NCBI RefSeq assembly: GCF_026151205.1
Contig: NC_087079.1
Span: 3,553,230 to 3,617,229 of the forward strand
Length of the DNA stretch: 64,000 nt
Source: Bolinopsis microptera
Taxonomy: Eukaryota; Ctenophora; Tentaculata; Lobata; Bolinopsidae
Direction: 5' to 3'
The first letter of the stretch is position 1. Each line of letters begins with the position of its first letter. The notes beneath the pieces are model-generated. The model searched no databases, was not told the origin of the DNA, and was given only the letters and a program-made list of their open reading frames with translations. Made by a program: the position numbers and the translations under genes. Shown one piece after another: positions 9,100-61,920 of the stretch.

Positions 9100-12000
9100 G
9101 TGCTCTCACTATAAAAGCCAGGGCTGTGAATCGGAGGTACCCCGCTAGTGCCCCCTGTCAGTACCTAGTCGAATAAGTCGACCTTAGCCTCTCTGCAACA
9201 AGTCCTCCTGATGCCTCCACGTGGTGAAGACTGGATACTGGACGATGGATGGTGGTGAACTCCAGGCAAGAATCAGGATGGGCGACGGGTAGATAGCTGA
9301 CCCCCGGAGAGACAAGATAGGAACGCCAGTTGTCTCTCGAACTCCTAGCCTCTGAAGAAGAGAGGTGCGGAGAATCAGCCGGAGGTGTTGGTCATTATAT
9401 CCTCTGACTTTCCACTACGACCCAAATGATTGGACCACGCTCTGGTGGAAAGGATGACCCCCCATACCCGGGGTAACGGGCAGTCAGGGAGAGGGCTAGC
9501 TCCTGCAAAAGTTTAGCTTATGCTGACACCCTAGCCCCCCTAGCTCAGGGACAGGAGTGGCTACCTTCGGGTAGTGTCGGTGAAGAAGAAGAAGAAGAAG
9601 AAGAACTCACCACATCATTTACCCTGAGCAGACAGTTCGATTGGTTAAAGTCTGATAAAAAGTTCAACTCAAGTTGATGTTCCTGCGGTTCAAACCCAAA
9701 TGTTCCGGTAGCGTGGCTTTGGGAAATGACCATTTGCCACCATGGAGGGGACTCCATGGGGTCATTTAGCTATTTGAAAAACAACTATGATGAATTTAAA
9801 CAGCACTAGGGTTAAAGCCCCTAACACGAATCTTGTGGAGGGTCGGCAGTTTTATGACTTGGTTGGCTTAAAACCCAATCTGGGAGGGCCAGGCGATGAT
9901 GTACTGTCGTACCCAACACAACACAACAGGATAAGTACAGAACCGGAAAAGAAGAGCAGTAATAGTGGCAGCGTTGTGTCGTGTAGTAGGAAAACGTTCA
10001 TCGGGACACTGAACGTTCGTACTGTTAGGGAACAGTATAAGAGGATAGAGTTAGCATCGCTCTTCCTTGAGAGTAGAGTTGCAGTTTTAGGGGTACAAGA
10101 GCACCGGATTGTGCATGAGGAGGAGATCAAGATCCAGAGTTTTGAGAAGGGTGTGCACCTGGTGACCACACCTGCTTGGAGAAACACCCGACAAGCTGCT
10201 ACTGGCGGAGTTGGGTTTATGCTGACCAAGCAGGCCTACAAAGCAGTGAGTCTCATGAAATCGTTTGGGAAGCGAATTTTTCTCATATCCTTTGATGGAA
10301 ACCCACGGCTTACAGTAATAACGGTGTACAGTCCCACTGAAGCAGCATCAAATGAAGAGGCAGAGGACTTTCACGAGGGACTAAGATCTGCATTAGGAGA
10401 GGTACCAGCCCATCATCTGCTAATGGTTGTTGGTGATCTTAACGCCCATCTTAGCAGATTGAATGAGGAGGATTCAGGTTGGTACTGGCATCGAGTATCC
10501 AACAGAAACGGATCGCTTCTCAGGGATACTTTGTTGGAGGGAAACCTTGAGGCAACTAACCACCGATTCCAGAAACGTCCCGGTAAACTATGGACGTATC
10601 TCTCTGACGGAACACTGAGCAAGAGTCAGATTGATTACATCCTGATAAGGAAGAAGTGGCGTAACTCAGTCAAGGACACTGTTGTCTCCAATTCTTTTAA
10701 CTCTCTTGGGTCGGACCACCGTCTAGTAGTTAGTTCAGTCAAACTCAGCCTGCGAAAGTGCCAGAATGCACCTAGAGTAGTAAGATATGACTACAGACTG
10801 CTCAAAGAGAATAAGGAGTTGCAAGCCTTGTATTCTGTGGAGGTGAAAAACAGATTCTCTATGCTACTGGAGGAAGAATCTAGTGAGCAGAACGATCCCA
10901 CGATTCAGTACGGAAAGCTTATGGATGCCGTGAAAGCAACCAATCATAAGTTGCTTAAGCCCATCCCAAGAAGACAACGTAACAACCCCTCCCAAGATCC
11001 TAGGGTATCGGAGAGGAGGAGAACTCTGTTTCAGGCCAAAGACGCATATCATGAGAATCCTACAGAGGAGAGTAGAGAGGTAGTTAAGGAGTGTAAGGAT
11101 GCACTTGCAGTGAGCTACAAAGAGGTTGAGGAGGAGACTCTTGTTTCTCGGATCAGGCGGGCTGAGGATGCTGCTGACAGGTGTAAGAATAAGGAAAGTT
11201 GGGACCTTATTAATGACATAAATGGCAGGAAAAGCAAGCCATGCAGCCTGGTTGATGGAGGTAGTGCAGAGGGGAGATTGAAGAGCTGGAAGGACCACTT
11301 CACTAAGCTCCTGGGTCAACCACCATCTGTACCTGACCAGGAAATAGTTATCCAAACCATCCACCCCCAGCAGGATATAGAGACTGGTCTGTTTTGCAGG
11401 GAGGAGTTAGCGGAGGCGAGGAAGCAGATCAAGGAGGGTAAGGCCTATGGTGATGATGGCATAGCTCCAGAGATTCTCAAAAGAGTGGACATGGACGACC
11501 TGATTCTAGAGTTCTGTAACAGCGCTCTGGTTGATGGAAAAATCCCTGATCAATGGCGGCAACTCAACATCGTGCCTGTGCCAAAGAAAGGAAATCTAAC
11601 TAAAGTGGATAACTACAGAGGAATCGCTCTTACGTCCATTGTTAGTAAGACCCTGAATCGTATGATCCTTAACAGAATCAAACCAGCGATGGAGAAAATC
11701 CTGAGGATCAACCAAAACGGATTTCGGGAAGGACGCAGTACCACCAGCCACATTCTGTGTCTAAGGAGGATCTTGGAGGGGGCTAGAGACAAAAACCTGA
11801 CCGCCCTTCTCTTGTTCATCGATTTTAAGAAGGCCTTTGATAGCATTCATAGGGGTATATTGATGAAGATACTCCTGGCATATGGGATACCAGAGCCCAT
11901 TGTTAGGCTGATAGATGCTATGTACAAGGACACCATGGCACGAGTCATCACGGAGGATGGTCTGACTGAAGCTTTCCTTATACTTGCTGGAGTTATGCAG

Positions 12001-12960
12001 GGAGATACACTGGCGCCCTACCTCTTCGTGATTGTCATTGACTATGTGATGACAACAGCACTTAGAGGCAAAGAACTGGGCTTCACTGTCAACCCCAGAA
12101 GAAGCAGGAGATACCCAGCAGTTAAGGTGACAGATGTCGACTTTGCTGACGATCTTGCACTGACAACAGACACCGCAGAGCAAGCGCAAGATCTTCTCCT
12201 CAGTGTGGAGCTGGCTGCTAACTCCGTTGGACTCCACCTCAACGAGAGTAAGACGAAGTACATCAGAGTCAATCTCTCTGAGTCTGACTCTACCGTCATT
12301 AAAGCAGCAAGTGGGCAGGAGATAGAGCAAGTAGATGACTTCGTCTACCTTGGAAGCAGAATAATGAGTGCGGAGAAGGACTTTGATGTTAGGAAAGCAA
12401 AGGCATGGGGGGCCTGTCATCAGTTAAAGACAACCTGGAAGTCTGGAATGCGCAGGGACTTAAAGATCCGTGTCTTTCGAGCAACGGTTGAGCCCGTACT
12501 CCTGTACGGCTCTGAAGCTTGGACGATAAGCCAATCCATGACTAAGCGGATCAATGGATGCTACACTAGAATGCTCCGGATGGCCTTGAACATACGTTGG
12601 CCACAAATCATCAACAACAGTGATTTATACGGCAACATCCCCAAGCCATCAGCGATGATAGCCTCCAGAAGAATGAGACTGGCTGGACATGTAGCCAGGC
12701 ATGACGACCTTCTGGCAAACCAACTTCTGTTCTGGGACCCTCAGCATGGATACAGGAGACCGGGGAGGCCCCACCTTACGTTTCTGGACATGCTAAAGAA
12801 GGACACCAGCCTTTCCTGTGTTGAAGAGATAAGATCTGTTATGCTTGACCGCGACGTGTGGCGAGGAATTGTAGTTGCTCGGACCAAGAAGCCGACTTAA
12901 GTCAGTAAGTCAGTTCTCCCCGTGTTAGCATTCCTTGATTATTGCCTGGATATTGGCCGG
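9100..12960 (+). mobile_element. RTE-type LINE retrotransposon
   Basis: The intact 1037-aa ORF (9787-12900) is preceded by about 650 bp of GC-richer, stop-rich leader that includes a (GAA)n tract at 9580-9604 and a CCCCCCATACCCGGGGTAACG segment. That leader is probably the 5' UTR. Neither end could be fixed, because no target-site duplication or tail repeat was seen; the limits given are approximate. The single long ORF suggests a young insertion. Confidence 0.75.
9787..12900 (+). CDS. LINE ORF: endonuclease and reverse transcriptase (RTE-like)
   Basis: A 1037-residue polyprotein for target-primed reverse transcription. The N-terminal exonuclease-endonuclease-phosphatase (EEP) domain spans roughly residues 70-320: LNVRTVRE at the start, VQEHRI with the metal-binding Glu, VVGDLNAHL near 217 and LGSDHRLVVSS near 310. 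The RT follows: DNYRGIALTSIVSK near 605, FIDFKKAFDS near 678, GVMQGDTLAPYLF near 737 and the catalytic VDFADDLAL near 786. The C-terminus has RRMRLAGHVAR and RRPGRPHLTFL, typical of RTE/BovB-type proteins. All catalytic residues are present and there is no internal stop or frameshift. The ATG at 9787 is the first in frame. It is the only complete ORF of its family here. RTE assignment follows from domain order and the single ORF; the exact clade needs a tree. Confidence 0.9.
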   Translation: MMNLNSTRVKAPNTNLVEGRQFYDLVGLKPNLGGPGDDVLSYPTQHNRISTEPEKKSSNSGSVVSCSRKTFIGTLNVRTVREQYKRIELASLFLESRVAVLGVQEHRIVHEEEIKIQSFEKGVHLVTTPAWRNTRQAATGGVGFMLTKQAYKAVSLMKSFGKRIFLISFDGNPRLTVITVYSPTEAASNEEAEDFHEGLRSALGEVPAHHLLMVVGDLNAHLSRLNEEDSGWYWHRVSNRNGSLLRDTLLEGNLEATNHRFQKRPGKLWTYLSDGTLSKSQIDYILIRKKWRNSVKDTVVSNSFNSLGSDHRLVVSSVKLSLRKCQNAPRVVRYDYRLLKENKELQALYSVEVKNRFSMLLEEESSEQNDPTIQYGKLMDAVKATNHKLLKPIPRRQRNNPSQDPRVSERRRTLFQAKDAYHENPTEESREVVKECKDALAVSYKEVEEETLVSRIRRAEDAADRCKNKESWDLINDINGRKSKPCSLVDGGSAEGRLKSWKDHFTKLLGQPPSVPDQEIVIQTIHPQQDIETGLFCREELAEARKQIKEGKAYGDDGIAPEILKRVDMDDLILEFCNSALVDGKIPDQWRQLNIVPVPKKGNLTKVDNYRGIALTSIVSKTLNRMILNRIKPAMEKILRINQNGFREGRSTTSHILCLRRILEGARDKNLTALLLFIDFKKAFDSIHRGILMKILLAYGIPEPIVRLIDAMYKDTMARVITEDGLTEAFLILAGVMQGDTLAPYLFVIVIDYVMTTALRGKELGFTVNPRRSRRYPAVKVTDVDFADDLALTTDTAEQAQDLLLSVELAANSVGLHLNESKTKYIRVNLSESDSTVIKAASGQEIEQVDDFVYLGSRIMSAEKDFDVRKAKAWGACHQLKTTWKSGMRRDLKIRVFRATVEPVLLYGSEAWTISQSMTKRINGCYTRMLRMALNIRWPQIINNSDLYGNIPKPSAMIASRRMRLAGHVARHDDLLANQLLFWDPQHGYRRPGRPHLTFLDMLKKDTSLSCVEEIRSVMLDRDVWRGIVVARTKKPT

Positions 12961-24759: not shown

Positions 24760-25560
24760 TGAAAAATTATAAAACCTACTGTGAAGATCTGTCAACATTA
24801 TCGAAAATCTCTCAGCATTTAAGTCAGCTCTAGGACTGCTAATTGTTAAAGTTCTTGACAAGTTTCGGTATATTACGTCAATACTTCAGTGTTTGATATC
24901 CCATGAAATAATTTAATTAAAGTTGTCGTTGGTTTAGCTCATAGCTGTGGTTGCAAGTAACATTATTTGATGCGCAGCGTAGCCAAAAAGTGGTTCGCGC
25001 TGCAAGCTCAACTGGATGTGAATATACACACTACACAGGTGCTGGCCAATACAAGTCTTGGCAGTACTAGCAGGATATAAAAGCCTAATTGCGACTATAT
25101 CCTTTCACCAGCTGCATTCAAGCTTGTCTCAGTTAGCGCTTATTTATAAGTTTTGAAAAAGAAATAAAATCTATCTCGTGGGATATCAACAGAAATTCGT
25201 TGAATTTATTTTGCTAATATAAATGCGATTTGTCGTAGGGTGTATCTTTATTTATTAGTGCAATGTGTATTAACATATTAATAATCCTTCTTTTGATTCC
25301 TGTAAGTATATTATGTTACTTTTGAAGAGTTTTCTGGGGGTTTATTGTTAATCATAGTGTGGTATATAATATCAATAAATCTTCCTATGATTACTATATG
25401 ATATATTTAAAGTTTTAATTTTTCCTAAATAGATTTGTTTTTGAGATTATTTAGTTGTTTGTTGCTGGATATTTTCACCTCACCCTTAAGAACCGCTCTG
25501 ACATGGTTAGTACCTGGCACTTGTTTCAGTTGCTAACCATATGGGCGGTATACAAGCACA
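24760..25560. other. non-coding AT-rich stretch
   Basis: No gene supported between the GEMIN7 locus and the pentanucleotide array; stops occur in all frames. Confidence 0.5.
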
Positions 25561-26150
25561 TCATTTCATTTCATTTCATTTCATTTCATTTCATTTCATT
25601 TCATTTCATTTCATTTCATTTCATTTCATTTCATTTCATTTCATTTCATTTCATTTCATTTCATTTCATTTCATTTCATTTCATTTCATTTCATTTCATT
25701 TCATTTCATATCATATCATATCATATCATATCATATCATATCATATCATATCATATCATATCATATCATATCATATCATATCATATCATATCATATCATA
25801 TCATATCATATCATATCATATCATATCATATCATATCATATCATATCATATCATATCATATCATATCATATCATATCATTTCATTTCATTTCATTTCATT
25901 TCATTTCATTTCATTTCATTTCATTTCATTTCATTTCATTTCATTTCATTTCATTTCATTTCATTTCATTTCATTTCATTTCATTTCATTTCATTTCATT
26001 TCATTTCATTTCATTTCATTTCATTTCATTTCATTTCATTTCATTTCATTTCATTTCATTTCATTTCATTTCATTTCATTTCATTTCATTTCATTTCATT
26101 TCATTTCATTTCATTTCATTTCATTTCATTTCATTTCATTTCATTTCATA
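25561..26150. repeat. pentanucleotide microsatellite: TCATT / TCATA / TCATT blocks
   Basis: An essentially perfect 590-bp array: 29 units of TCATT (25561-25705), 34 units of TCATA (25706-25875), then 54 units of TCATT (25876-26145). The middle block differs from the outer ones by one T-to-A change per unit and its edges are sharp. Because five is not a multiple of three, each frame cycles through the same residues, so long open frames here (ISFHF repeats) are not genes. Confidence 0.98.
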
Positions 26151-26157
26151 AACATCA

Positions 26158-27726
26158 TCACATATGGACACCTTCAACAAGACGTTGTCTCACGTTTTGA
26201 CTTTTTCTAAATTGATTTTTAGAGTCTCATATAGTCTATTGGCTATGATAGACTCGATTGATTGGTTGCAGAATCTTCATAGCTTTATGACTATGAAATC
26301 AAAATCATGCTATCACATAAATTGACAGAGCTAGACCACGTTAAAGTCGAATGATACAAATATCACATTTTCTGAGATGTGATAATGATACAAATGGGTC
26401 TGGAGAGACCGAATGTTATCAGTTTTTTATGAAAATTTCTTAACATGATGCCTGTCTCCTAAGGAAGCAGTGTACAAAAGGAAATCGTTATTTAGGCTCA
26501 TTATGATACAAATATCACACATTTTCGTTTCAAAATTGTCCGTTTTATGATGTGATTATTGAATCCCCTTGACCTCTTTTTTCTGTTTCTTTGAACTCAA
26601 ACTGTACCAGAGGCAATTCCAAACAGAATTAGTAAAAAGTATGATACAAAAATCAACCTCCCGTTAGATGTACTACAATTATCACATTGTATTTTAAAAC
26701 AACGAAATATAGCTATTTTTCGGGTCCAGTTCTCTGGGTGGCTGTTTGAAGGGTACATAATTCATTAATAAAGATGAAACTTCATTCACACCTACAAAAA
26801 TGGTAACTCAGTATGGATACAAGGATGAAAAATTGTTCCAACCACTTGAAGGATACAAATATCACATTTTTTGTGAACCAAATTTTACAAGTGTAACATT
26901 CGTGATAAATGTATCAATATGGGTCTATAGAACGAGATTCTTTTTGATACATGTACAATAAACATTATTGCTCCCTGAACATCTTACACAGCACATCTAG
27001 GAACCAAAATAGGATACGAATATCACAATTTCAATTTAAATTATTTTTTATTTTTTTAAATTTTTTTTAATCAAGTGATATTTGTATCTGAAAAGTGCTT
27101 ATTTAATGAAATGCCTATTACTTATTGACTATGTTTAATAATATTGGATGAATTGATCTTTAAAAACAACATTCACACATTATTGACATTGATTCGTGAA
27201 AAATATTGAATTTAATGTGATATTTGTATCATTTACAGGTCATTTATTGAATGTCAATCATTACAACATTATTTTACAGCCTAAAGCACCTTGAATAGCA
27301 TTCAAAAAATCAAAATAGTCCTCACTGGTTCTCATTATAGCCTACCCTAAGTGATGTGTGATAATCGTACCATATTTCGTACATTTAACCATTAATCGCG
27401 GTACATATAACACCCACATGCTTCAGAAAGGTTTGATGGTCACATCTATCACGATAACTCACTCAAATCATGTAAATTCGATTTTACACAGCCATAAACA
27501 AGTTTCCCTGTGATATTCTTATCATAAAGTGTACAAATAACAAATTTAGCTGTTTCATGTTGATGAATGAGTGATTATTGTATCCTTCTTGACCAAACTA
27601 CAAATTTTTGTGGTAATTGGTTTAAAATTGGCCGAGTAATAACTATCACATGATTTGGCAGTCAAAATTCGAGCATGTGGCAGTCAAAACGTGAGACAAC
27701 GTCTTGTTGAAGATGTCCATATCATC
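26158..27726. mobile_element. non-autonomous TIR element with repeated GATACAAATATCAC sites
   Basis: The left end ATATGGACACCTTCAACAAG (continuing to CGTTTTGACT) returns inverted at 27684-27724 with one mismatch over about 41 bp. Inside, GATACAAATATCAC or close variants occur in the plus orientation at 26353, 26505, 26852 and 27013. They occur inverted (GTGATATTTGTATC) at 27075 and 27217, with degenerate copies near 27357, 27510 and 27571. Orientation switches near the centre, so the element is symmetric. It has no ORF of note. The left TIR begins within about 10 bp of the pentanucleotide array. I do not recognise the family. Confidence 0.75.
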
Positions 27727-28034: not shown

Positions 28035-28563
28035 ATCTAATTTGCATACTTTCCACTACTATATAAGTTGATAAAGCGTTTTTTAGCAACATGAGGATTA
28101 CACACTAGATATTCATTGTGCTTCTCTTTATTAGTAGCATAATTTAATCCCTCAATCTTTCCTAATACTTCGTCCGAAACATACCAAAAATGACTATCAT
28201 TTACAGATCCGTTTAAAATAGTCTCTTTTTTGAAAGCCTCTAATCTTATTTTAAAACTTAACACAGTCCCACAATTCTTGACATCCGAGGGGAGTTTGTT
28301 CCAATATGGTCTCACCCTCTCCGGAAGAAAAGAACTGTGGGCTTTCTTCATTTTACTGCTACTTTTACTGCATCTACTGTTTGATACCACATTAAGACCA
28401 GATCTGCTCATACTGAACAAACCAGCTCCGTAATTGGCCAAACCACTTATCATTTTAAAAGATTCAATGAGGTCCCCACGTATTCGCCGCTCTGCCAGCG
28501 TTGTTAAATTGAGGATTTCCAGTCAACGACTGTATGGAAGAGTACCCACCTCGTCAATTTTTT
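28035..28563 (-). pseudogene. LINE RT C-terminus, downstream half (split by insertion)
   Basis: Read on the minus strand, the segment begins KKIDEVGTLPYSR, has a stop, then LEILNLTTLAERRIRGDLI, and continues to RVRPYWNKLPSDVKNCGTV. This is the standard C-terminal end of a CR1/L2/Jockey-type reverse transcriptase. The piece that should precede it, ending SVQRRFTRLI, is found at 35515-36130 on the same strand. The two halves were therefore one LINE, now separated by the 28564-35510 insertion. One in-frame stop at the former R/LE junction shows it was already decaying. Confidence 0.8.
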
Positions 28564-28708
28564 TAATACTTTCAGCGCTGCTATATAACAAATAATTTGA
28601 GTTCAGGGATAGCATGTACTAGTACCCCCAAAGGGGAGACGTGAGTTATTTGTTGCTTGATTTGTTTGCTGTGCTGTCTTTATTAGCTGTGTGTTGCTTG
28701 GCTGTGCG

Positions 28709-29467
28709 ATGTCAGGTACAGGTATAAAAACACCATCTACCGGAAATAGACGTGGCTCTGTGACAGGAACAGGGCCAACCGCTAAAAAAGAGCATCATAA
28801 TGTTGATAAATGCCCATGCAGCCAATCGAATGCTGGAAGCTTCAAGCTAATATGCACAGGATGCAAACAGAACTGGCATGCAGATTGTCTGGGACTAAAG
28901 GGTATCACGAAGCCGTCAATAATGAAGCTGGAAAAGTGGTTATGTCCATTTTGCTACGTTGCACCCGTACCAACCACCATCAAAGATATCTCATACGACA
29001 ACTTCTGCTACAAATGTCGGAACACCTTGAGTCTACAACAGTCCAATAGTGATTATGAGGTGCACTCTGCCTGTCAGAATCTCAAGGACATAGAAACCTT
29101 GACGAAATCACTATCAACAATTGATGTTGATAAAATGAAAGAGTCGATCCAGGTGATCCAAAACCTCGACCTTCACATGCAACACCTGCTAACCAATGAA
29201 CATGGTTTGAAAGACCATCAAAACCGAGTCAAAAACATAGAAGACCATTGTAAAGGAGAACTAAGTGAAGATGTAAGTGGTGTCAAAAAGGCTATTAAAG
29301 ACCTTCAGAAACAAATCACAGATCTTTCCACCAAAGGTCTTGTCTCATCTACTGCTCCCAAGCTTGACACTGAGAAATTGATACATGATATCATAGACCA
29401 GCTTGATGAACATACTCGGCAGGAACCGCATATTTCTCTTGAACTGAAGGAATCAAGCAGTCTCTAG
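28709..29467 (+). CDS. LINE ORF1, N-terminal part with PHD finger
   Basis: About 252 residues from the first ATG. Residues about 30-80 form a C4HC3 PHD finger: CPCSQS, then LICTGCKQNWHADCLGL, ending KWLCPFC. A central segment (VIQNLDLHMQHLL; KKAIKDLQKQITDLS) looks like coiled coil and could trimerise or multimerise ORF1. The frame stops at a TAG (29465-29467), but the next frame carries on without a break from 29443 into the AlkB-SGNH region. A single-base loss near 29443-29464 therefore probably split one ORF1 protein. PHD fingers are known from ORF1 of CR1-like LINEs, where they may bind histone tails. No slippery heptamer is visible, so programmed frameshifting is unlikely. Confidence 0.8.
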   Translation: MSGTGIKTPSTGNRRGSVTGTGPTAKKEHHNVDKCPCSQSNAGSFKLICTGCKQNWHADCLGLKGITKPSIMKLEKWLCPFCYVAPVPTTIKDISYDNFCYKCRNTLSLQQSNSDYEVHSACQNLKDIETLTKSLSTIDVDKMKESIQVIQNLDLHMQHLLTNEHGLKDHQNRVKNIEDHCKGELSEDVSGVKKAIKDLQKQITDLSTKGLVSSTAPKLDTEKLIHDIIDQLDEHTRQEPHISLELKESSSL

Positions 29468-30789
29468 ACCAACTATCTTCCCAACAGACGACAATTCCTC
29501 ATGATCAGCCATCATCTGGTTCTGCATTAAATGATAAGCACCTTCTATCAAAGACCACCTTTAAACATGAGGAAAAACCTGTGGTAGACACCGTGGAAGA
29601 ATTCATCGACAGTGATGCTGAATCAGACCTTCTCCAATACTGCGAATCTCTTCAGTTCAGTCAGGAGAATGGGCATTCAGTATGTTCTTTTGGAGAGAAG
29701 TACAAGTATAGCGGATCCAGAGATGAGAATAAGAAAACCGTGGAGATCCCTGATAAAATTGCTGCACTTGTCCTGAAAATCAATGAGGAGTTCTGTGCAG
29801 AAGGAAACCCTGTAATGAATAGCGTGTTGATCAACCGCTATGAAGAAGGCGAGGGTTATCTGCCTGAACATTCAGACAATGAACCGGTGATACATCCAGA
29901 GTCTAGCATATTGACTCTTTCCATTGGAGGTGAATGCAAAGTCCTCTTCACTGAAATGAACAACCCAGTTCACACGCACAAGTGTACTCCAAGATCAGTT
30001 TACAGGATGACCAGAAGGAGTCAGGCTCACTACAAGCACTCTATCCAGAAGGGGTCAGTCACTGGTGCAGTACGATATAGTTTCACCTTCAGATCAATAG
30101 ATGGAAAGAATCGTGCCAGTACTTGTATCTTCTCTGATTCAAATGGAGCAGGTATGAAATTTGGAGAGGATCACAAAAGGAGCTTTGGTAAGTGGCTGCC
30201 TGGTCGGAATGTTTGGACTCCTACAATAGATGACATTAACCCATATCTTGCATGTGGATACAAGAACATTGTTATTATGTGTGGTATAAATGATGTTAGA
30301 AGACCATCTGTTAAATCTCAGCGTGAAATTTTTGCTATATTTAGTCATCTAGAATTCAAGATTGAGCAAATTCAAGAGGCCAATCCAACTGCCCAAGTAT
30401 TTCTTTGTCCTCTTTTACCAACTCGAAATGCTGATTTAAATAGGAAAGTTCTTTACTTTATAGAACTTATTCGTCGTGAGCTACTCCCCAAAAACTTTGG
30501 TGTCCAGTTCGTTGATGGCTTTGATGACTTCCTTGACAATAACACTGGCTTACTTTGCCTAACCTTGTCCAGGGAGTTTGACAGATATGGCCGAACGGAT
30601 TACCTGCACCTTAATTGGAAGGGAGTGGCCAAACTTGCTACTTTAATCCGTAATACTGTCCTTGTTAGGATGCATGGAGGGACTGATAGGAGGAAGAGGG
30701 GGAGGAGGGACGGTAAGGTTGGTTCAACACTTTATTCTCATGCCGCCGGAGGACAGCCTCGTGTTGAAGGCTATCAGCCTCCAACATGA
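29443..30789 (+). CDS. LINE ORF1, C-terminal part: AlkB-like dioxygenase and SGNH hydrolase
   Basis: Two enzyme-like domains in one frame. Positions are counted from the GTG codon at 29581. AlkB-like 2OG-Fe(II) core: NRYEEGEGYLPEHSDNEPV gives the iron ligands H97 and D99, HYKHSI gives H153, and RYSFTFR gives R165 and R171 of the RxxxxxR 2-oxoglutarate motif. SGNH-like hydrolase: block I FSDSNG (Ser187), block III CGINDVR (G235, N237), PLLPTRN near 280, and block V DYLHLNWKG (D340, H343). AlkB enzymes remove alkyl groups from nucleic acids, and SGNH esterases occur in CR1-like ORF1. The frame opens after a TGA at 29440-29442 and is presumably the continuation of the PHD-containing ORF. Its stop overlaps the ORF2 start as ATGA. 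Activity is not shown, but all signature residues are present. Confidence 0.85.
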   Translation, partial: TEGIKQSLDQLSSQQTTIPHDQPSSGSALNDKHLLSKTTFKHEEKPVVDTVEEFIDSDAESDLLQYCESLQFSQENGHSVCSFGEKYKYSGSRDENKKTVEIPDKIAALVLKINEEFCAEGNPVMNSVLINRYEEGEGYLPEHSDNEPVIHPESSILTLSIGGECKVLFTEMNNPVHTHKCTPRSVYRMTRRSQAHYKHSIQKGSVTGAVRYSFTFRSIDGKNRASTCIFSDSNGAGMKFGEDHKRSFGKWLPGRNVWTPTIDDINPYLACGYKNIVIMCGINDVRRPSVKSQREIFAIFSHLEFKIEQIQEANPTAQVFLCPLLPTRNADLNRKVLYFIELIRRELLPKNFGVQFVDGFDDFLDNNTGLLCLTLSREFDRYGRTDYLHLNWKGVAKLATLIRNTVLVRMHGGTDRRKRGRRDGKVGSTLYSHAAGGQPRVEGYQPPT

Positions 30790-33700
30790 ATGTTCTTAAA
30801 AAAGAGGTCTGTGCCCACTGTCTAAAAAGTATTTACTTAGGTCAATCTATAATTGAATGCTACCACTGTAATTGTCCCATTCACTCTAGATGTTTTAACA
30901 CCAGTGACAAACAAAATAAAAAAGTTGACTTGTACTGCAATAATTGTATCCACCTAGCAGTAAACCGTTATAACCCATTTAAGCTTCTGAATGATGACAA
31001 TGATGACAACACTGATGCAGATGATGTAATACGTAAAATCTCTGAGGTACTTGAAAGCTGTGACTCATATTCTGTAAAAGACATAAACCGCACCTTTGCT
31101 AACGAATTACAAGTGCAAAACTCACTAATATTTCAAAATCTTGATGGCAACAAATCAAACTTTGACTCGCTGGCAATTGAAATAGCTAGGTTTACTAACA
31201 AATTCTCTGTAATTGGTCTTGCTGAAACGAATGTAGGCCCTGAAATGAAAAACTTGTACGAACTCACAGGCTATGAGAGCTTCTATCAAGATACCTTCGA
31301 CTCGAAAGTAAAAGGCTCAGGAGTAGCTCTATATGTCCTGAACTCCTTCAATGCTGTCAAAAATAACAACCTTTCACAAGTAACAGAAAATCTAGAAACC
31401 CTCTTTGTAACTATAGGTAGTCTAGGAAATTCTACTTCTATAGGAGTAATATACCGCCCTCCAAGTGGCAATGCTGAGCAAGCTCTCCAAGAACTGTCGT
31501 CAATACTTGATAAAGCACCAAAACATACACACATTGCAGGTGATTTTAACATTAATCTCCATAGTAACCACAGTAGCATTATTGCACAGTATGAAGATGT
31601 CCTATTTAGTAGAGGCTTCTTTCCATTGATATCATTAGCAACTCATGAAAAGCCTGGATGTAATGCCTCGTGCATCGACAACATCATTACAAATGACCTA
31701 GACTCTGTTACTGCCTCTGGAGTCATAACTGATCACATATCTCATCACCTCCCTATATTTACAATATTTGACTGGGAAATTAGCAAGACCAAAAATATTC
31801 ACAAGCACACTCAATATTATGACTATTGTAAATCAAACACTGATAAATTTGCTGAAGTCTTGGGTAACAAACTAGACAATGAACCAATTATAGATTTTAC
31901 TAACTTTCATGATATCTTTAAAAACAGCATTGACGAAACCTGCAAACTAGCTGTACCCAAAACCACTAAGCGCACTATCCAGAACAACCCATGGATTACT
32001 GGCGGGATTATAGCCTCAGTAAACCACTGCCATGGGCTGTATGATGACTGGGCGAAAGTCAGGAAAGTTAAGTGTAAACAAGGCGAAACTGACACAAAAG
32101 GGGGCACATGCCTGTGTTCTATCTGCTGTAATAAAAGAAACCGTTATGATGACTACAAAGAATATAGAAAGGCTCTAAAAAAGGTTCGTAAAAAAGCTGT
32201 ATCTGAATATTATTCTGACAAGTTTCTTGAAACTCAGGGAAATTCCAAGAAAACCTGGGAACTGATAAATAAAATTCGTGGCAAACAGAAACGTGATATC
32301 AGACCTATATTTACCATAGACAATGAAAAGATAACTGATCGCAGAGTTATAGCTAATGAATTCAATAAGTATTTTGTATCCCTAGCATCTAACCTTAATG
32401 CAGCCTACACAGAACTAGGAGAGATACAAATAAATCAGCTTCCAAGTTTCTGTGACTTCTTACCTAAATCGAATACAGCTAATATATATCTACATGACTG
32501 CTCACCTGAGGAGGTGGCTAAGATCATATCGGAACTTAAGAATGGCAAGGCTAGCGACATACCAGTACATATAGTAAAGGCAGTATCAGGCAAAATTAGC
32601 CCACTACTATCGGTATTGTACAACGAATGTATGCAACAGGGATTTTTTCCAGACGACCTAAAAGTAGGTAAAATAAGTCCAATATATAAGAAAGAAAATG
32701 CTGAGCTTCTTGAAAATTACAGGCCTATCTCAACCTTAGCGATATTCGGTAAAATACTTGAAAAAATCATATTCTCCAGGCTTTACAGTTTCTTTCAGTC
32801 GCAAGGATTATTATATGAAAATCAATATGGCTTTAGAAAAAATCACTCGACAAGCCATGCACTCAACTTCTCTGTCGACTACATTGAAAAATCTTTAAGA
32901 GATAAAAATCACGTACTAGGCATCTTCATTGATTTAAGTAAAGCTTTTGACACAATCTGTCATGATAAACTGCTTAAAAAACTGAATGATTATGGAATTC
33001 GAGGGACTGCAAATAAATTGATAGCCAGTTACCTTTCTAATAGACAGCAATATGTTTCAGTACTTGGAGAAGAATCCGAAAAACTGTCTGTAATATTTGG
33101 TGTTCCTCAGGGGTCAGTATTAGGTCCCTTGCTTTTCATTATCTACATCAATGAAATATATAGAGTATCAGACCTAGGTAAGTTTATACTTTTTGCCGAT
33201 GACACCAACATATTTGTTGTAGATAAATGTATAAAAACACTTTACTGCAAAGCTAATAAAATTCTTAAACTTGTTCATCAGTATATGAAGAGTAACTTGC
33301 TGCATATCAACATAAAGAAATGTTGTTATATCCACTTTAAGCCGAACTGTAGAAATGAACCAGATTCAAACACCAATGAATTAGAACTGACACTAAATAA
33401 TATAGTAATTAAAAAGGTGGAGGAAACTAAGTTTCTTGGAGTCATTATTGACCAAAAACTGAACTGGGATGCTCACTTAAGAGCGTTAAACCGTAAATTG
33501 AAATGTGAGATAGGTAGACTATGTGGAATTAGACGCTGTGTACCTAAAAAACTATATAAGGACCTGTACCACACCCTTTTTGAATCACACCTATGTTATG
33601 GAATATCTGTTTGGGGAGGTGTATCAAATAATAAACTAGAAGCCATATTTAAAACACAAAAGAAATGCATAAGAATTCTCTTTGGTGATAATGATGCATA

Positions 33701-34169
33701 CTTCAATAAGTTCAAAACATGTGCCAGAGTAAGGCCTATCACTAGGGATAAGACCGGTAAAGTTATCAAGCAGATGTTAGGCAAAGATTTCTTTGAACTA
33801 GAACACAGTAAACCAATCTGTAACGAGTATAACTTCCTGACTGTCCACAATCTTCATAAGTTGCACTGTTTACTGGAAATGTTTAAAATTAATAAGTTCC
33901 AATCACCAGTCTCAATGTTCTCTTTATTCAACAGGTCACCAAGACGAGACAACTACTTCATCCCACCCACTCCATCCTCACTATTCATCTATCAATCAAC
34001 TAGTATTTGGAATCACTGCCGTAAGTCAACAAGTGAAATAGACTTCTCCACTCCCATCAGTATATTCAAGAATAATCTTAAGAAATCTTTGTTAGAACTA
34101 CAATCTAAATATGACCGACAACTTTGGTGCAGTTACAACTTTGATGCAAATGAATTATCATTGAAATAG
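30786..34169 (+). CDS. LINE ORF2: zinc finger, endonuclease, reverse transcriptase
   Basis: An intact 1127-residue protein. Residues 9-58 form a PHD/RING-like Cys-His finger (VCAHCLKS, IECYHCNCPIHSRCFN, LYCNNCI) and are followed by RYNPF. The EEP endonuclease spans about 115-335, with FSVIGLAETN, GVIYRPPSGN, AGDFNINL near 250, CIDNIITND and SHHLPIF. The RT spans about 620-880, with ENYRPISTLAIFGKILE, GIFIDLSKAFDT, GVPQGSVLGPLLF and the catalytic LFADDTN near 803. The thumb has TKFLGVIIDQKLNWDAH. Domain style is CR1/L2-like. The ATG lies inside the ORF1 stop (ATGA), suggesting translation by termination-reinitiation. No disabling change was seen, so the copy could still supply RT. Confidence 0.92.
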   Translation: MNVLKKEVCAHCLKSIYLGQSIIECYHCNCPIHSRCFNTSDKQNKKVDLYCNNCIHLAVNRYNPFKLLNDDNDDNTDADDVIRKISEVLESCDSYSVKDINRTFANELQVQNSLIFQNLDGNKSNFDSLAIEIARFTNKFSVIGLAETNVGPEMKNLYELTGYESFYQDTFDSKVKGSGVALYVLNSFNAVKNNNLSQVTENLETLFVTIGSLGNSTSIGVIYRPPSGNAEQALQELSSILDKAPKHTHIAGDFNINLHSNHSSIIAQYEDVLFSRGFFPLISLATHEKPGCNASCIDNIITNDLDSVTASGVITDHISHHLPIFTIFDWEISKTKNIHKHTQYYDYCKSNTDKFAEVLGNKLDNEPIIDFTNFHDIFKNSIDETCKLAVPKTTKRTIQNNPWITGGIIASVNHCHGLYDDWAKVRKVKCKQGETDTKGGTCLCSICCNKRNRYDDYKEYRKALKKVRKKAVSEYYSDKFLETQGNSKKTWELINKIRGKQKRDIRPIFTIDNEKITDRRVIANEFNKYFVSLASNLNAAYTELGEIQINQLPSFCDFLPKSNTANIYLHDCSPEEVAKIISELKNGKASDIPVHIVKAVSGKISPLLSVLYNECMQQGFFPDDLKVGKISPIYKKENAELLENYRPISTLAIFGKILEKIIFSRLYSFFQSQGLLYENQYGFRKNHSTSHALNFSVDYIEKSLRDKNHVLGIFIDLSKAFDTICHDKLLKKLNDYGIRGTANKLIASYLSNRQQYVSVLGEESEKLSVIFGVPQGSVLGPLLFIIYINEIYRVSDLGKFILFADDTNIFVVDKCIKTLYCKANKILKLVHQYMKSNLLHINIKKCCYIHFKPNCRNEPDSNTNELELTLNNIVIKKVEETKFLGVIIDQKLNWDAHLRALNRKLKCEIGRLCGIRRCVPKKLYKDLYHTLFESHLCYGISVWGGVSNNKLEAIFKTQKKCIRILFGDNDAYFNKFKTCARVRPITRDKTGKVIKQMLGKDFFELEHSKPICNEYNFLTVHNLHKLHCLLEMFKINKFQSPVSMFSLFNRSPRRDNYFIPPTPSSLFIYQSTSIWNHCRKSTSEIDFSTPISIFKNNLKKSLLELQSKYDRQLWCSYNFDANELSLK

Positions 34170-35514
34170 GTTGATTTAGTAAACATAATCATATGAGTAA
34201 ACCACGGTGTTATTGCAAAAAACCATGACAAGGGTATCAGAGGTCTATATTAATCTAAGAGACGACACAAAACGAATCATCATACAACAAATTTTAAAAT
34301 CCTGCGGCACAGGATCCTGTTGTTTTCCTACTCTACCTCTCCCAAACCCCTCTCTCCTTCTCCTCTCTTCAGGTTTATTCTTCAATTTTTTTAAAATTAG
34401 ATAGCAGATATATTTTCATTTAAATGAAGTAATGGCATTATACATTGTTTGTTATCGTATGTATGTTGTGTATAGTGTTTGCTGACTGGGTATATGCTAT
34501 ATATTTTGAGGCTCACGACGTCTCGTCCCATGGGTGGAGTTGTAGGCTGAGTATGTGTTCAAATCTCCTTACTTCGTATGGTGAAACATTGAAAGGTTTG
34601 CCTTAGCCTTTGGGACGAGTGTTTGCCCACCGGGGATCCAAATATATGATTATCATGGACATTACTTTGACACATAAACTAATCAAACGACTTTAATGAT
34701 TCCAGAAAATTTTACTAACTGCATTTAGCTAGTTTATAGTAAATACACACGATCGCAGAATAGAGGAGCACAATTGGGTTCCTTGTTCTGCGACTGTGTT
34801 TCCTCGGTGGGCCGACAGGTTTTTGTTGTGTAGTAGTGCTGGGAAAAAAAAAACGCTTTAACTATCATGTATCAATGAGAGTACAAATTTTTAATTCTTG
34901 ACCTTAGTGCCACAGTTTCTGTGGTAAAAACAAATTTATAGTTAAACGTTATATATTGTAGAAGGGCATGATTTACTCACATCACTAAGCATCTGGATGG
35001 ATAATTAGCACACAAAGATAAACTGACCTTTAAACATGACCACCAGCTATACCACGTAACCATAGCTCCGAAATAAATAAATTGCTCTACATAGAAACAT
35101 CTGGCCTGATCCTATCACATTGTGGTCCCCAGGGGTTCGGTAAAGCCCTTACAGGCAACTGGGTCCTTTTACCAGCCACAATAAAATTGATCATGCCAGT
35201 ACTGTCATAAACTGTAACCAACTATTTAAAAATTAGGTATCTTTTGCTAAATTTTAAATTTTAAGTCATAGAGCAATCTTCTCAATTTTAAAATTTTTAA
35301 GAATTATATTTTACCCTAACTATGATGTGGTGGCATTTCATACTTAACTAAATTTCAACTTTGAAAGTAAATAGATTATTAGTGACAACAAAATTATAGT
35401 TTAAGACATCCATTCTGCATTGTGTTTCCAATATTAGAATTTATGATATGTATTGATTGAATAATTGGTAATAAATTTAACTTTTGTTTTATTAACTTTT
35501 GTTTTATTAAATCA

Positions 35515-38698: not shown

Positions 38699-39022
38699 AT
38701 ATGGTTGTTAAAAGCCTACATAATACTCTTCACTTAATATGGCTAATGTTTAGCATTATTTATAATCCATTACAATGATGTGATCTGAAATTAAGTTAAG
38801 CTACAGACGTTTTTTGTGACAATACAAGAAATAATGGATGAGCTCCTACTTGTGAGCCACTTAGGAAATACAATATATCTGATTTATTGTACCTTCACTT
38901 CTTCTGCTTTTTCGTTTGCTGTCTGTGCTCTGCGACAGCAATTTGTTGCCCAGATTTCCTATCCTCCCCTACCACCTTCTTACCACATTGAGCCTCACCA
39001 GCGCAACTTGAATTATATTAGA

Positions 39023-40482
39023 AATCGTTAACAAAATATATCACTTTTGAGAAGTATGCTGAGGCAATTAACGAGTCATTTAGTGGGAACAAATACATAA
39101 GTTCAATAGGACAAGGTATTGTGACTCCTCTACAGAAGCCCGGTAAACCTAAAGGTCCCCTCACAAGCCTTAGACCACTTACACTGTTAAACGGATCAAG
39201 GAAGATGCTCACTCAAATTGCCTTAAAACGGGTTGAGAGTAGAATTGACAACTACACCATGCCATGGCAGAGTGCTTACAAGAGAGGTAGGAGCTGCTCT
39301 GACATTGTGTGGGCTCAGAGAATGCTAATATCTGTTGTGATGAGGAAGAAATGGACATTTAGCAAAATGGGTATTGATATGAGTAGAGCTTTTGATACCG
39401 TGAAAAGGGACACTATCATCAATGTTTTGAAGGATGCTGGTTGTTCGGACGACGACATTCGCTTAGTTCAATACCTTCTATCGAATACTCTCCTTAGAGT
39501 TCGTGTTAACTCCTCACTGTCGGAAGAGTTTGAAAGTTTACTCGGAGCCTTTCAAGGTGACAGTTTATCTGGAAAGCTATTCACACTTATTCTTGCAGCA
39601 GCCTTACACCACCTCAGAGCTGTATCTGGGAGACCAAACCCACCAGTATCAGAACTAGGTTTTCCAACTGAGTGGGAATATTCAGACAATTGTGACTTTG
39701 CTGACGAGGACATCGAGAAACTGAGAATTTTCCTTCCTACAGTGAAGGAGATTCTCAAAGACTGGAACCTCCAAGTAAATGAAAGTAAAACTGAATTCAG
39801 TACCTTCTACCTGGCGAAAAAATCTGATAAAGACACAAACGGTCAGCCATTAGCTAATAACGAACCATGGCGAAGTAACAAGTCACTAGGTTCCTTACTC
39901 TGTACTGAGAAGGACATTCAAAGAAGGAGAATCCTAGCTGAGATTGCTTTTAAGAACTTTGGAAAAGTATGGTTGTCCGGTAAGAAAATTTCCCTTGAAA
40001 GAAAGCTGAGGTTATATGATGCTCAAGTTGTATCTGTATTGATTTACAACTCAAATAGTTGGAGTCCTAAGAAAGCAACCATGGAGAAAATGGACACACT
40101 CCATCGTAGACACCTCAGGTCCATTTTAAACATCAAATGGCCTAAAGGTATGATAAGCAACAAAGCATTGTATGAAAGGTGCAAAGTTGAAAAGTTATCC
40201 AAGCGTATTGAACACCAGCGGTGGAAGATGTTTGGACACATTCTCAGGAGTATGGAGAACACCCCAGCCCAAACGGCTCTCTCTTTTGCTATTGAATCAG
40301 ATAATTTATTCATTGGTAGATTGGGGAGACCTAGAATGAACTTGTTATCGGTTTTAAGAAGTGATTTAAGTAGTAGAAATTTGCAAATGGACAACTTGCA
40401 TGAATTGAACGAAATTAGAGATATAGCTGCATGCAACAGATGTTGGGAAAATCTTTTTCAAGGGTACAGTTTACCGCATTAA
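39023..40482 (+). pseudogene. LINE reverse transcriptase fragment, catalytic YSDD altered to YSDN
   Basis: The open frame runs from after a TAG near 39020 to the TAA at 40480-40482, about 485 codons. It covers the RT fingers (GIVTPLQKPGKPKGPLTSLR), the first catalytic block (MGIDMSRAFDTVKRD), GAFQGDSLSGKLF, the catalytic site and the thumb. The C-terminus reads RWKMFGHILRS and RLGRPRMNLL. The catalytic box reads YSDN instead of YSDD, a single G-to-A change that should abolish polymerisation. There is no endonuclease, so it is 5'-truncated. It is the same family as 4360-5553. Confidence 0.85.
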
Positions 40483-46256: not shown

Positions 46257-46301
46257 TGAGTACTGAATACTTCTTTACAATAAAACTATTGTAGGATTGT
46301 C

Positions 46302-47678
46302 ATGTCAGAGCATAGTAACATATCCCCAACTGCAGCTGAAGAAATGTGTTATCAGGACTTTGACAATTCAACTCAGATAAAACAGGAGTCTATAACTGAT
46401 ACTCAGTATTGTGACATTTCAACTCAAATAAAGTATGAGATAAAAACTGAGCAGAATTCTGACAATGTAGTTCAGATAAAACAGGACATTGAAACTGAGC
46501 AGGATTCAGATAATTTAACTACAATAAATCAGGCAGTTAAAACTGAGCAGGAAGAAAACTTGAACAGTTTAATTTGCCCGAAATGTGAAGCATATTTCCT
46601 CAATATTCATCGCTTTGTTAAACATATAAGAGCACACCATGAAAACAATATCAGTACAAATTTTAACTCTGATAAGTTAATGAGTGCTGAATCAGAAGAA
46701 ATGTTTAATCATTCAAGAACAACAACAAATGTGGAAAAGCCTTTTCAATGTAATGTTTGCTCTTATTGTTGTTCGTGCAGATCCAAACTTTTTACACATC
46801 AACGTATCCACATGGGAGACAAACCTTGTAATGGAAGCTCATCATCTTTTGCTCAGAATTCTTCTATCACAAAACATAATTGTCTTCATATGGGAGAAAA
46901 ACCCTTCAAGTGTAATGAATGCTCCTCATCTTTCTCTTATAAATCTGAACTCAGAGCACACCAGCGTGTACACACAGGAGAGAAACCGTTCAAGTGTAGT
47001 GAATGCTCCTCATCTTTCTCTCAGAAATCTCATCTCAGAACACACCAGCGTATCCACACAGGAGAGAAATCTTTCAAGTGTAATGAATGCTCTTTGTCTT
47101 TTTCTCAGAAATGTAGTCTCAGAGCACACCAGAGTATCCACACAGGAGAGAAACCGTTCAAGTGTAATGAATGCTCCTCATCTTTCTCTCAGAAATGTAC
47201 ACTCAGAAGACACCAGCGTGTACACACTGGAGAGAAATCCTTTAAGTGTAATGAATGCTCCTCATCTTTCTCTCAGAAATCTAATCTCAGAGCACACCAG
47301 CGTATTCATACAGGAGAGAAACCGTTCAAGTGTAGTGAATGCTCCTCATCTTTCTCTCGGAAATCTAATCTCGCAACACATCAGCGTATTCATACAGGAG
47401 AGAAACCGTTCAAGTGTAATGAATGCTCCTCATCCTTCTCTCAGAAATCTAATCTCAGAGCACACCAGCGTATTCATACAGGAGAGAAATCGTTCAAGTG
47501 TAGTGAATACTCCTCATCCTTCTCTCAGAAATCTAATCTCAGAGCACACCAGCGTATTCACACTGGAGAGAAACCGTTCAAGTGTAATGAATGCTCCTCA
47601 TCTTTCTCTCGGAAATCTAATCTCGCAACACATCAGCGTATCCACACAGGAGAGAAACGGGAAAACCTTCAAGTGTAG
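46302..47678 (+). CDS. C2H2 zinc-finger protein, copy 1
   Basis: A 458-aa probable DNA-binding regulator. The N-terminal 90 residues are acidic and hold several SUMO-type motifs ([16 protein letters not shown]). A divergent finger ([10 protein letters not shown]) follows, then about eleven C2H2 units joined by HTGEKPFKC linkers. One unit lacks a cysteine pair (CNGSSSSF) and another has its second Cys replaced by Tyr ([10 protein letters not shown]). Finger helices are nearly uniform (QKSNLRAH). The protein ends EKRENLQV because the last finger, intact in copy 4, is frameshifted: [18 protein letters not shown] can be read in another frame directly downstream. An AG acceptor lies 7 nt before the ATG. 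No KRAB, BTB or SCAN domain is visible. Confidence 0.9.
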
Positions 47679-47990
47679 TAAATGCACCTTAACTTTTTCT
47701 CAGAGTTCAAATCTAAAAACTCATCAATGTATTTACACATTGAATGATCCATTTATTTTTCATTTATTTATAATTAACCTAATCTACATTTTATGGCATT
47801 TCATTTATTATTTTTGATATTCATGCGTTTTCTTATTGAAAGTTATTTCATTTACCATGACGATTGATTATAAATTGTTGTTGAACAATAAAGGGTATCA
47901 ATTTGAATTAATAATAAGATTGGCATTATTTATCATTTGTCTATGTGAGTACTGAATACTTCTAAACAATAAAACTATTGCAGGATTATC

Positions 47991-49184
47991 ATGTCAGAGC
48001 AAAGTAACATAATATCCCCAACTGCAGCTGAAGAAATGTGTTATCAGGACTTTGACAATTCAACTCAGATAAAACAGGAGTCTATAACTGATGCTCAGTA
48101 TTGTGACATTTCAACTCGAATAAAGCATGAGATAAAAACTGAGCAGAATTCTGACAATGTAGTTCAAATAAAACAGGAAATTGAAACTGAGCAGGATTCT
48201 GATAATTTAACTATGATAAATCAGGCAGTTAAAACTGAGCAGGAAGAAAACTTGAACGGTTTAATTTGCCCGAAATGTGAAGCCTATGTCTTAAATAATC
48301 ATCGCTTCTTTGAACATATGAGAGAGCACCATGAAAACAGTATCAGTACAAATTTGAACTCTGATAAATTAATAAGTGCTGAATCAGAAGATCACACAAG
48401 AGAGAAACCGTTCAAGTGTAATGAATGCTCCTCATCTTTCTCTTATAAATCTAATCTCATAGCACACCAGCGTATTCACACTGGAGAGAAACCGTTCAAG
48501 TGTAATGAATGCTCCTTGACTTTCTCTCAGAAATCTAATCTCAGAACACACCAGCGTATTCATACAGGAGAGAAACCGTTCAAGTGTAGTGAATGCTCCT
48601 CAACTTTCTCTCGGAAATCTCATCTCAGAACACATCAGCTTATTCACACAGGAGAGAAACCTTTCAAGTGTAATGAATGCTCCTCATCCTTCTCTCAGAA
48701 ATCTAATCTCAGAGCACACCAGCGTATTCACACAGGAGAGAAACCGCTTAAGTGTAATGAATGCTCCTCATCTTTCACTCAGAAATCTAATCTCAGAACA
48801 CACCAGTGTATTCATACAGGAGAGAAACCGTTCAAGTGTAGTGAATGCTCCTCAACTTTCTCTCGGAAATCTCATCTCAGAACACATCAGCTTATTCACA
48901 CAGGAGAGAAACCTTTCAAGTGTAATGAATGCTCCTCATCCTTCTCTCAGAAATCTAATCTCAGAGCACACCAGCGTATTCACACTCGAGAGAAACCGTT
49001 CATGTGTAGCGAATGCTCCGTATCTTTCTCTCAGAAATCTACTCTCACAAGACATAATCGTTGTCACACAAAAGAGAAACCTTTCAAGTGTAGAGAATGC
49101 TCCTTATCTTTCTCTTGGAAATCTAATCTCACAACACATCAGCGTATCCACACAGGAGAGAAACGGGAAAACCTTCAAGTGTAG
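47991..49184 (+). CDS. C2H2 zinc-finger protein, copy 2
   Basis: A 397-aa paralogue of copy 1 with the same SUMO-motif N-terminus and the [10 protein letters not shown] finger, followed by nine C2H2 units. A two-finger block ([14 protein letters not shown] plus [14 protein letters not shown]) occurs twice, a sign of unequal exchange within the array. The penultimate fingers FMCSECSVSFSQKSTL and FKCRECSLSFSWKSNL are the most divergent. It shares with copy 1 the frameshift that truncates the terminal finger (ending EKRENLQV). The poly(A) signal AATAAA of copy 1 lies 99 nt upstream of its ATG, and an AG acceptor (ATTGCAG) 7-8 nt upstream. Confidence 0.9.
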   Translation: MSEQSNIISPTAAEEMCYQDFDNSTQIKQESITDAQYCDISTRIKHEIKTEQNSDNVVQIKQEIETEQDSDNLTMINQAVKTEQEENLNGLICPKCEAYVLNNHRFFEHMREHHENSISTNLNSDKLISAESEDHTREKPFKCNECSSSFSYKSNLIAHQRIHTGEKPFKCNECSLTFSQKSNLRTHQRIHTGEKPFKCSECSSTFSRKSHLRTHQLIHTGEKPFKCNECSSSFSQKSNLRAHQRIHTGEKPLKCNECSSSFTQKSNLRTHQCIHTGEKPFKCSECSSTFSRKSHLRTHQLIHTGEKPFKCNECSSSFSQKSNLRAHQRIHTREKPFMCSECSVSFSQKSTLTRHNRCHTKEKPFKCRECSLSFSWKSNLTTHQRIHTGEKRENLQV

Positions 49185-49499
49185 TAAATGCACCTTAACT
49201 TTTTCTCAGAGTTTAAATCTAAAAACACATCAATGTATTTACATAGCATTGAATGATCCATTTATTTTTGATTTATTTATAATTAACCTAATCTACATTT
49301 TATGGCATTTCATTTATTATTTTTGATATTCATGCGTTTTCTTATTGAAAGTTTTTTCATTTACCATGACGATTGATTATAAATTGTTGTTGAACAATAA
49401 AGGGTATCAATTTGAATTAATAATAAGATTGGCATTATTTATCATTTGTCTATGTGAGTACTGAATACTTCTAAACAATAAAACTATTGCAGGATTATC

Positions 49500-50696: not shown

Positions 50697-51008
50697 GTTT
50701 AGTAAATGCACCTTAACTTTTTCTCAGAGTTCAAATCTAAAAACATATCTGCATCAGTGTATCTACACAGCATATGAATGATCCATTTTTGTTGATTTAT
50801 TTAGATAATTAATTTAATCTGCATTTTATGGCATTTTATTAAAAGTTTTCGTATTTTATGTTATTTCTTTCAACATGACGATTGATTATAGATTTTTGTT
50901 GAACAATAAAGGGTGTCAATTTGAATTAATAATAAGATTGGCATTATTCATCATTCGTCTATGTTAATACTGAATACTTCTTTACAATAAAACTATTGCA
51001 GGATTGCC

Positions 51009-56958: not shown

Positions 56959-57004
<46 letters not shown>

Positions 57005-61911: not shown

Positions 61912-61920
61912 TAAACACTG

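Follow-up and report, generated by a model that had tools for sequence, protein, structure and literature searches.

An AlkB-type dioxygenase domain in the ORF1 protein of LINE retrotransposons from the ctenophore Bolinopsis microptera

Long interspersed nuclear elements (LINEs) of the CR1/L2 group are known to carry a PHD finger and an esterase of the SGNH type in the proteins of their first open reading frame (ORF1), together with an ORF2 that encodes an endonuclease and a reverse transcriptase (PMC4120745, PMC3905857). The two LINEs described here lie in a 64,000-nucleotide stretch of the genome of the ctenophore Bolinopsis microptera (contig NC_087079.1, positions 3,553,230 to 3,617,229; the window hereafter) and share this layout, but differ from it in that an AlkB-type domain stands between PHD and SGNH, in this comparison a feature of the window LINEs only; moreover, the abstract of the survey of Jockey-superfamily ORF1s limits the esterase type to vertebrate groups (PMC4120745). 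The terms AlkB, dioxygenase and oxygenase have 0 occurrences in that survey, which fits the remark of a sequence-only reading of the window that such a domain does not belong to the usual parts of a LINE. A search of the open-access literature (thus of neither subscription papers, Repbase nor preprints) brought up the orchid paper discussed below but no AlkB in a LINE in the titles and abstract openings of the matches listed, and in that literature we did not find a report of a LINE combining the known PHD and SGNH modules with an AlkB oxygenase.

A retrotransposon encoding an AlkB-type domain has been described in Phalaenopsis orchids, but it is a Ty3/Gypsy element with long terminal repeats (LTRs), in which AlkB occupies a separate extra ORF and demethylates N6-methyladenosine (m6A) in vitro (PMC9289625), whereas the window element is an animal LINE whose AlkB is fused to SGNH and PHD and comes closest to ALKBH2, ALKBH8 and ALKBH3. 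Plant RNA viruses of the Alphaflexiviridae, Betaflexiviridae and Closteroviridae also carry AlkB on an RNA-templated element, with a postulated function in RNA repair (PMC9289625); these are viruses and not LINEs, and a viral source in IMG/VR was considered and set aside, as none of the 20 stretches that matched a pattern was confirmed as a relative of the LINE domain. The capture of an SGNH hydrolase by a retroelement has a counterpart in the GDSL esterase ORF3 of bdelloid LTR retrotransposons, but the bdelloid elements are LTR and Penelope-like, and their description has 0 occurrences of AlkB or oxygenase (PMC5408684). As for cellular enzymes, the DNA and RNA repair dioxygenases ALKBH2 and ALKBH3 share with the LINE domain the family PF13532, the HxD, the distal His and the RxxxTxR motif, and are among its top profile matches in the PDB, but the LINE AlkB is embedded in ORF1 and belongs to a clade separate from the ALKBH2 of the host.

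In the first window LINE (copy 1, plus strand), the frame 29443-30789 encodes 448 amino acids (aa) and matches the Pfam family 2OG-FeII_Oxy_2 (PF13532) at residues 83-217 with an E-value (E) of 6.2e-15; scored over 29443-30786, the match reaches 56.4 bits, above the curated threshold of 31.2. The AlkB-like 2-oxoglutarate (2OG)-Fe(II) oxygenase domain extends over 29575-30117 (residues 45-225, limits from the A3 profile; Pfam stretch 29689-30093) and includes an HxDxE motif with two iron ligands and a conserved Glu (HSDNE, 29869-29883), a distal iron-ligand His (30037-30039) and an RxSxTxR motif with the two 2OG-site arginines (30073-30093). The sequence-only reading had recognized this residue set, and the profile search yields the significant AlkB match that such a set would lead one to expect. 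The SGNH hydrolase it had placed downstream in the same frame is also there, at approximately 30118-30660 (Ser 30139, block III Asn 30289, Asp 30598, His 30607): Lipase_GDSL_2 (PF13472) matches residues 267-394 of 29443-30786 with E 4.4e-6 and 27.8 bits, below the cut-off of 32.9, and among PDB sequences this part has no match better than E 0.087. Less complete was the treatment of 29443-30789 as a unit. While the AlkB-SGNH pair stands, what is encoded there is the second portion of a larger protein that starts at the ATG at 28709 and not at 29443. The preceding frame, 28661-29467, contains a PHD finger (PF00628, E 4e-6; 28811-28954) followed by a linker, this N-terminal part of ORF1 covering 28709-29467, and in copy 1 the protein is broken, for the reading frame shifts within the overlap 29443-29467. 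Elsewhere in the genome ORF1 is a single open frame, of 709 aa in L002, L006 and L007 and of 716 aa in L010-L013 and L016 (stop to stop), and in L002 Pfam places PHD (51-98), AlkB (344-478) and GDSL (528-655) in one protein, so that the domain order is PHD-linker-AlkB-SGNH. No RRM or CCHC knuckle model was listed for the ORF1s scanned with Pfam, and an Rfam scan of the window gave no match.

The residues expected of an active enzyme are kept. In an alignment of 72 sequences (70 relatives of the window protein found by similarity, plus both window copies), the iron ligands and 2OG-site arginines are invariant wherever aligned: H, D and E of HxDxE are each present in 67 rows, the remaining 5 being gaps, the distal His in 70 (2 gaps), and the Arg in 71 at both positions (1 gap each), while the Asn of an N-x-Y/F motif is found in 66 of the 67 filled rows. 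The SGNH residues behave likewise (Ser 71/72, block III Asn 71/72, Asp 66/72, His 68/72, the rest gaps). Ratios of nonsynonymous to synonymous substitution (dN/dS) were calculated by the Nei-Gojobori method from the aligned codons of 28 full-length copies, using the 42 of 378 pairs with an ORF1 dS of 0.1-1.2; they are 0.06-0.15 for AlkB, as expected under purifying selection, although these pairs, which come down to roughly three contrasts between families, lack independence, a caution against the selection argument, and 0.08-0.11 for the SGNH domain where its dS is unsaturated. Between L002 and L010, 10 of 338 nonsynonymous sites differ against 32 of 90 synonymous ones (Fisher p 4e-16). We are therefore highly confident, from these sequence comparisons, that the AlkB-type domain is a real and selected part of a LINE ORF1. 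In three comparisons of ORF1 (L036/L045, L030/L048 and L033/L036), dS jumps by domain, from 0.02-0.10 in the linker to 0.31-0.34 in AlkB and to saturation in SGNH and the endonuclease, as if LINE families had swapped domains.

That the domain belongs to a LINE follows from what lies downstream. The sequence-only reading had located it just before an intact ORF2, and indeed the frame 30768-34169 is open over 1133 aa and matches RVT_1 above its cut-off (E 5.7e-36). ORF2 itself (30786-34169) comprises an N-terminal Cys-rich finger seen by eye, a predicted endonuclease, whose models Exo_endo_phos_2 (E 1.1e-4) and Exo_endo_phos (E 1.3e-3) remain below their cut-offs, and a reverse transcriptase, across which the top PDB match is L1 ORF2p. 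Also, there are signs of LINE-type insertion: a 15-bp repeat tail in copy 1 (3' end at 35477-35510) and poly(A) in copy 2, a copy 1 3' end common to L058 and L059, flanks that diverge beyond the tail in two other copies, and shortened 5' ends in L003, L004 and L005, where similarity begins later. By these features the element is a two-ORF LINE, with an ORF2 predicted to encode an endonuclease of the apurinic/apyrimidinic type and a reverse transcriptase. From their architecture we presume that the window LINEs belong to the CR1/L2 group. The flanks of copy 1 (28037-28522 on the minus strand, and 35511 onward) suggest that it was inserted, in reverse orientation, into a different LINE, towards the end of the ORF2 of that element.

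AlkB matches number in the hundreds in the Bolinopsis genome (G000, 264.65 Mb in 232 contigs), where all match counts are lower bounds. The window protein gave at least 94 scored matches from 940 candidates; by hand count, 30 of the 94 have at least 94% identity (window copy included), in 53 the match is free of stops and its frame spans 640 aa or more (excluding one 1003-aa frame), and 5 contain stops. With the second window copy as query, at least 128 of 872 candidates were scored, 15 of which, the query among them, have identities of 98% or higher, and the two queries pooled point to about 192 distinct places (29 common by eye; one copy appears as two separate pieces). Copies other than that of the window retain the HxD...H...RxxxxxR residues, which answers in its favour one of the checks named by the sequence-only reading. 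A spider ALKBH2-like protein gave at least 150 scored matches of 683 candidates, headed by the ALKBH2-like gene of the host (E 3.6e-37); the other 149 have E 1.2e-14 or weaker and lie in open frames that range from 252 to 2459 aa, in most cases 330-890, and by eye none overlap with the places found with the window queries. The Pfam family, in turn, gave at least 151 matches, with 150 candidates scored of 587. The places found with these last two queries may not all be LINEs; those read among the places unique to them are the host gene (L055), a 593-aa family (L056, L060) and part of a giant frame (L061). In the 593-aa family an AlkB domain (PF13532, E 4e-20) precedes an SGNH region; the frame that follows is separate and encodes a Cys-rich finger resembling the one in the window ORF2. 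Giant open frames of 2225-3388 aa with AlkB domains occur at G000:C10:16875843, C3:14441692, C12:8338315, C9:15868177, C12:2469580 and C9:11092850; the piece read, L061, has HKDDE and then Ser/Pro-rich repeats after AlkB, and differs from the LINE ORF1s.

In the protein database the window protein has 70 relatives, 46 of them 580-770 aa long, and a 25-row profile found 42, of which 26 were new. Among 25 full-length relatives hand-picked from the 70 and scanned with Pfam at E<=0.01, PF13532 was found in all 25, GDSL in 15 and PHD in 10. The spider Larinioides sclopetarius has several ALKBH2-like proteins (P0100-P0103, P0105, P0125), the P0105 cluster holding 83 member sequences, possibly another mobile or amplified AlkB.

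To which AlkB enzymes is the LINE domain closest? As a single sequence, its top matches among PDB sequences are ALKBH2 chains (E 1.5e-4), and a 12-row domain profile retrieves ALKBH2 (3.4e-13), ALKBH8 (4.5e-11), ALKBH3 (1.2e-10), bacterial AlkB (1.6e-4) and ALKBH6 (5.5e-4). The PDB contains ALKBH5 and FTO chains, and none of them is among the 35 profile matches at E<=1 in this comparison of sequences. The host has an ALKBH2-like gene of its own, the one such gene found (C5:18690415-18690990), which matches ALKBH2 chains at E 3.6e-60. We built a tree of 55 rows picked from 177 domains, 31 from LINEs and 24 "cellular", a label given on length and on the absence of the SGNH part. In it, 28 LINE domains form one clade (support 99/94), with P0069 adjoining, and the host ALKBH2 falls among the cellular rows. 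Two long-branched rows run contrary to a clean split: P0107, labelled cellular, stands beside LINE rows, and P0178 stands with cellular ones. A clade of 30 LINE rows (all but P0178) with the host ALKBH2 is rejected by the approximately unbiased test (p-AU 0.0075), which rules out a recent capture of the host's own ALKBH2. The same test does not reject a single origin for the full set of 31 LINE rows (p-AU 0.379), and the 30 rows without P0178 are grouped with a support of 51/0 only. P0178, a protein of 516 aa with AlkB and SGNH (the latter by eye), lies outside the LINE AlkB clade, and since it falls with the cellular-labelled rows, a second capture is possible.

What might a LINE do with such a domain? 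That selection has kept it suggests that it serves the element, with the element's RNA or the host as its target. We favour a scenario in which the ORF1 protein (ORF1p) clears the element RNA of base methylation that would block reverse transcription, and we would give this scenario a little under an even chance of being right. The AlkB domain would be an active Fe(II)/2OG demethylase of the ALKBH2/3 type, which ORF1p would hold in the ribonucleoprotein, and it would take methyl groups off the Watson-Crick face (1-methyladenosine, m1A; 3-methylcytidine, m3C; and like lesions) of the element's own RNA, leaving a clean template of ~7 kb to be copied by the ORF2 reverse transcriptase in target-primed reverse transcription. 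Within the same protein, the SGNH domain may act like the CR1/L2 ORF1 esterase, for which a membrane or ribonucleoprotein role has been proposed, and the PHD finger may anchor the particle on chromatin. The template is occupied by ORF1p, and ALKBH2 and ALKBH3 are known for substrates of the m1A/m3C type. AlkB enzymes do remove m1A and m3C, m1A impedes the R2 reverse transcriptase used in OTTR, and AlkB treatment improves the capture of 3' tRNA halves (PMC12140624); template cleaning by ORF1p, if real, would be nature's counterpart of the AlkB pretreatment that tRNA sequencing employs.

Several points weigh against this scenario. Whole-tRNA capture changed just modestly with AlkB (PMC12140624), and LINEs elsewhere, as far as the Jockey-superfamily survey tells (PMC4120745), manage without such a domain. 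The profile places ALKBH8 between ALKBH2 and ALKBH3, and ALKBH8 is a tRNA-wobble enzyme, so the substrate class is not fixed by affinity. The presence of m1A or m3C on LINE RNA in the host animal is an assumption of the model, and role, activity, substrate and timing are all inferred from sequence. An annotated relative in Mnemiopsis leidyi, P0044, comes without the AlkB core, possibly as a gene-model artefact.

Alternatively, the domain could erase m6A from the element RNA and so evade host reading or decay, as has been proposed for the orchid Ty3/Gypsy AlkB, whose ORF is indeed active on m6A in vitro (PMC9289625), and L1 activity is altered by m6A writers and by ALKBH5. In L1, however, it is m6A that helps and ALKBH5 that suppresses, the opposite of what the element's interest would require (PMC7873242). 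The LINE profile matches ALKBH2, ALKBH8 and ALKBH3 and no ALKBH5 or FTO chain, and because ALKBH2 and ALKBH3 act on m1A and m3C, we consider repair or clean-up the better supported reading and m6A erasure an unlikely one. The domain could also act on DNA, repairing or demethylating the target or the growing cDNA where the element inserts, while the PHD finger would direct the particle to selected chromatin. ALKBH2, the top profile match, is a DNA repair enzyme, and the PHD is part of the same protein; nonetheless ORF1 proteins mainly bind element RNA, and the grouping of LINE domains with the host ALKBH2 is rejected, as said. We consider a role on DNA rather doubtful.

It is harder still to see the domain as a mere nucleic-acid-binding module without catalysis. 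ORF1p has to bind RNA, and the Pfam scans listed neither of the RNA-binding models named above, but a fold that only binds need not retain iron and 2OG ligands, and here HxD, distal His and both Arg are invariant and the NxY Asn is nearly so; we think this quite improbable. The least credible explanation, which we put close to zero, is a chance resemblance, a host gene fragment or an assembly artefact. The broken ORF1 of the window copy would speak for it, and it is refuted by the large number of genomic matches, which share one architecture and belong to several families, and by the relatives in other data sets. A chance motif match is ruled out by the Pfam match, the invariant residues and the PDB profile match, and a single-copy fusion or assembly error by the many genomic copies. 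Returning to template clean-up, an active domain would mean that a LINE ORF1 protein, one of a class whose roles are poorly understood, has an integral nucleic-acid demethylase, and would raise a testable question: is target-primed reverse transcription in vivo limited by methylated RNA bases to such a degree that an element retains its own eraser? In any case, several LINE families from a lineage regarded as the sister group of other animals keep an enzyme domain by purifying selection, and they provide natural fusions of an AlkB-type enzyme to an RNA-packaging protein.

The 5' ends of these LINEs carry a further mark of the host. Both window LINEs open with 41 nucleotides (nt) that match the host spliced leader at 38 positions in copy 1 (28561-28601, plus strand) and at 39 in copy 2 (62975-63015, minus strand), and the same 41 nt open other LINE copies. 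The leader is encoded in a tandem SL-RNA array at G000:C3:13511056-13523060, with at least 20 units spaced 591 bp apart; in both units of the stretch read, GTAAG, the donor, directly follows the leader GAG, and an array unit gives a sub-threshold match to SmY snRNA (26 bits against 39). It resembles the leader printed for Hormiphora. In 15 of the 28 full-length copies the leader is present with 36-37 of its 37 nt, at 102-692 nt upstream of the first Met of the frame, and in the other 13 the leader is absent or reduced to a fragment. Two families each show two leader junctions: GAG is followed by ttcagggaaag in L031 and L033 versus ggaaag in L047 and L048, and in the other family by tgttcaggaatgg in L038 and L044 versus gaatgg in L043. 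The shorter junctions look like fresh trans-splicing onto a CAG just behind an older leader, and the presence of two junctions within each of two families thus suggests that LINE RNA is trans-spliced anew. Put together, one may picture a long-running radiation of ctenophore LINEs equipped with its own base demethylase, in which ORF1p would clean the template and host trans-splicing would re-make the 5' end of the RNA, a picture that we find possible and offer with more doubt than conviction.

The second window LINE lies on the minus strand at 57.0-63.0 kb and is diverged, with the same AlkB-SGNH pair. Its ORF1 consists of an N-terminal piece (61991-62980) and an AlkB and SGNH piece (61015-61941) with 37% identity to P0001 over 289 aa, near-identical copies elsewhere having open frames of 679 aa. 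ORF2 (57515-61060) is 44% identical to that of copy 1, and a poly(A) tail occupies 56962-57003.

The remainder of the window contains further reverse-transcriptase-like open frames on the plus strand at 4345-5553 (by eye), 9778-12900 and 39022-40482, the last two matching the window ORF2 at 29% and 24%. A simple repeat at 25455-26210 produces long spurious frames in all three plus-strand frames, and a tandem cluster of four frames with C2H2 zinc-finger arrays extends over 46284-52601, also on the plus strand.

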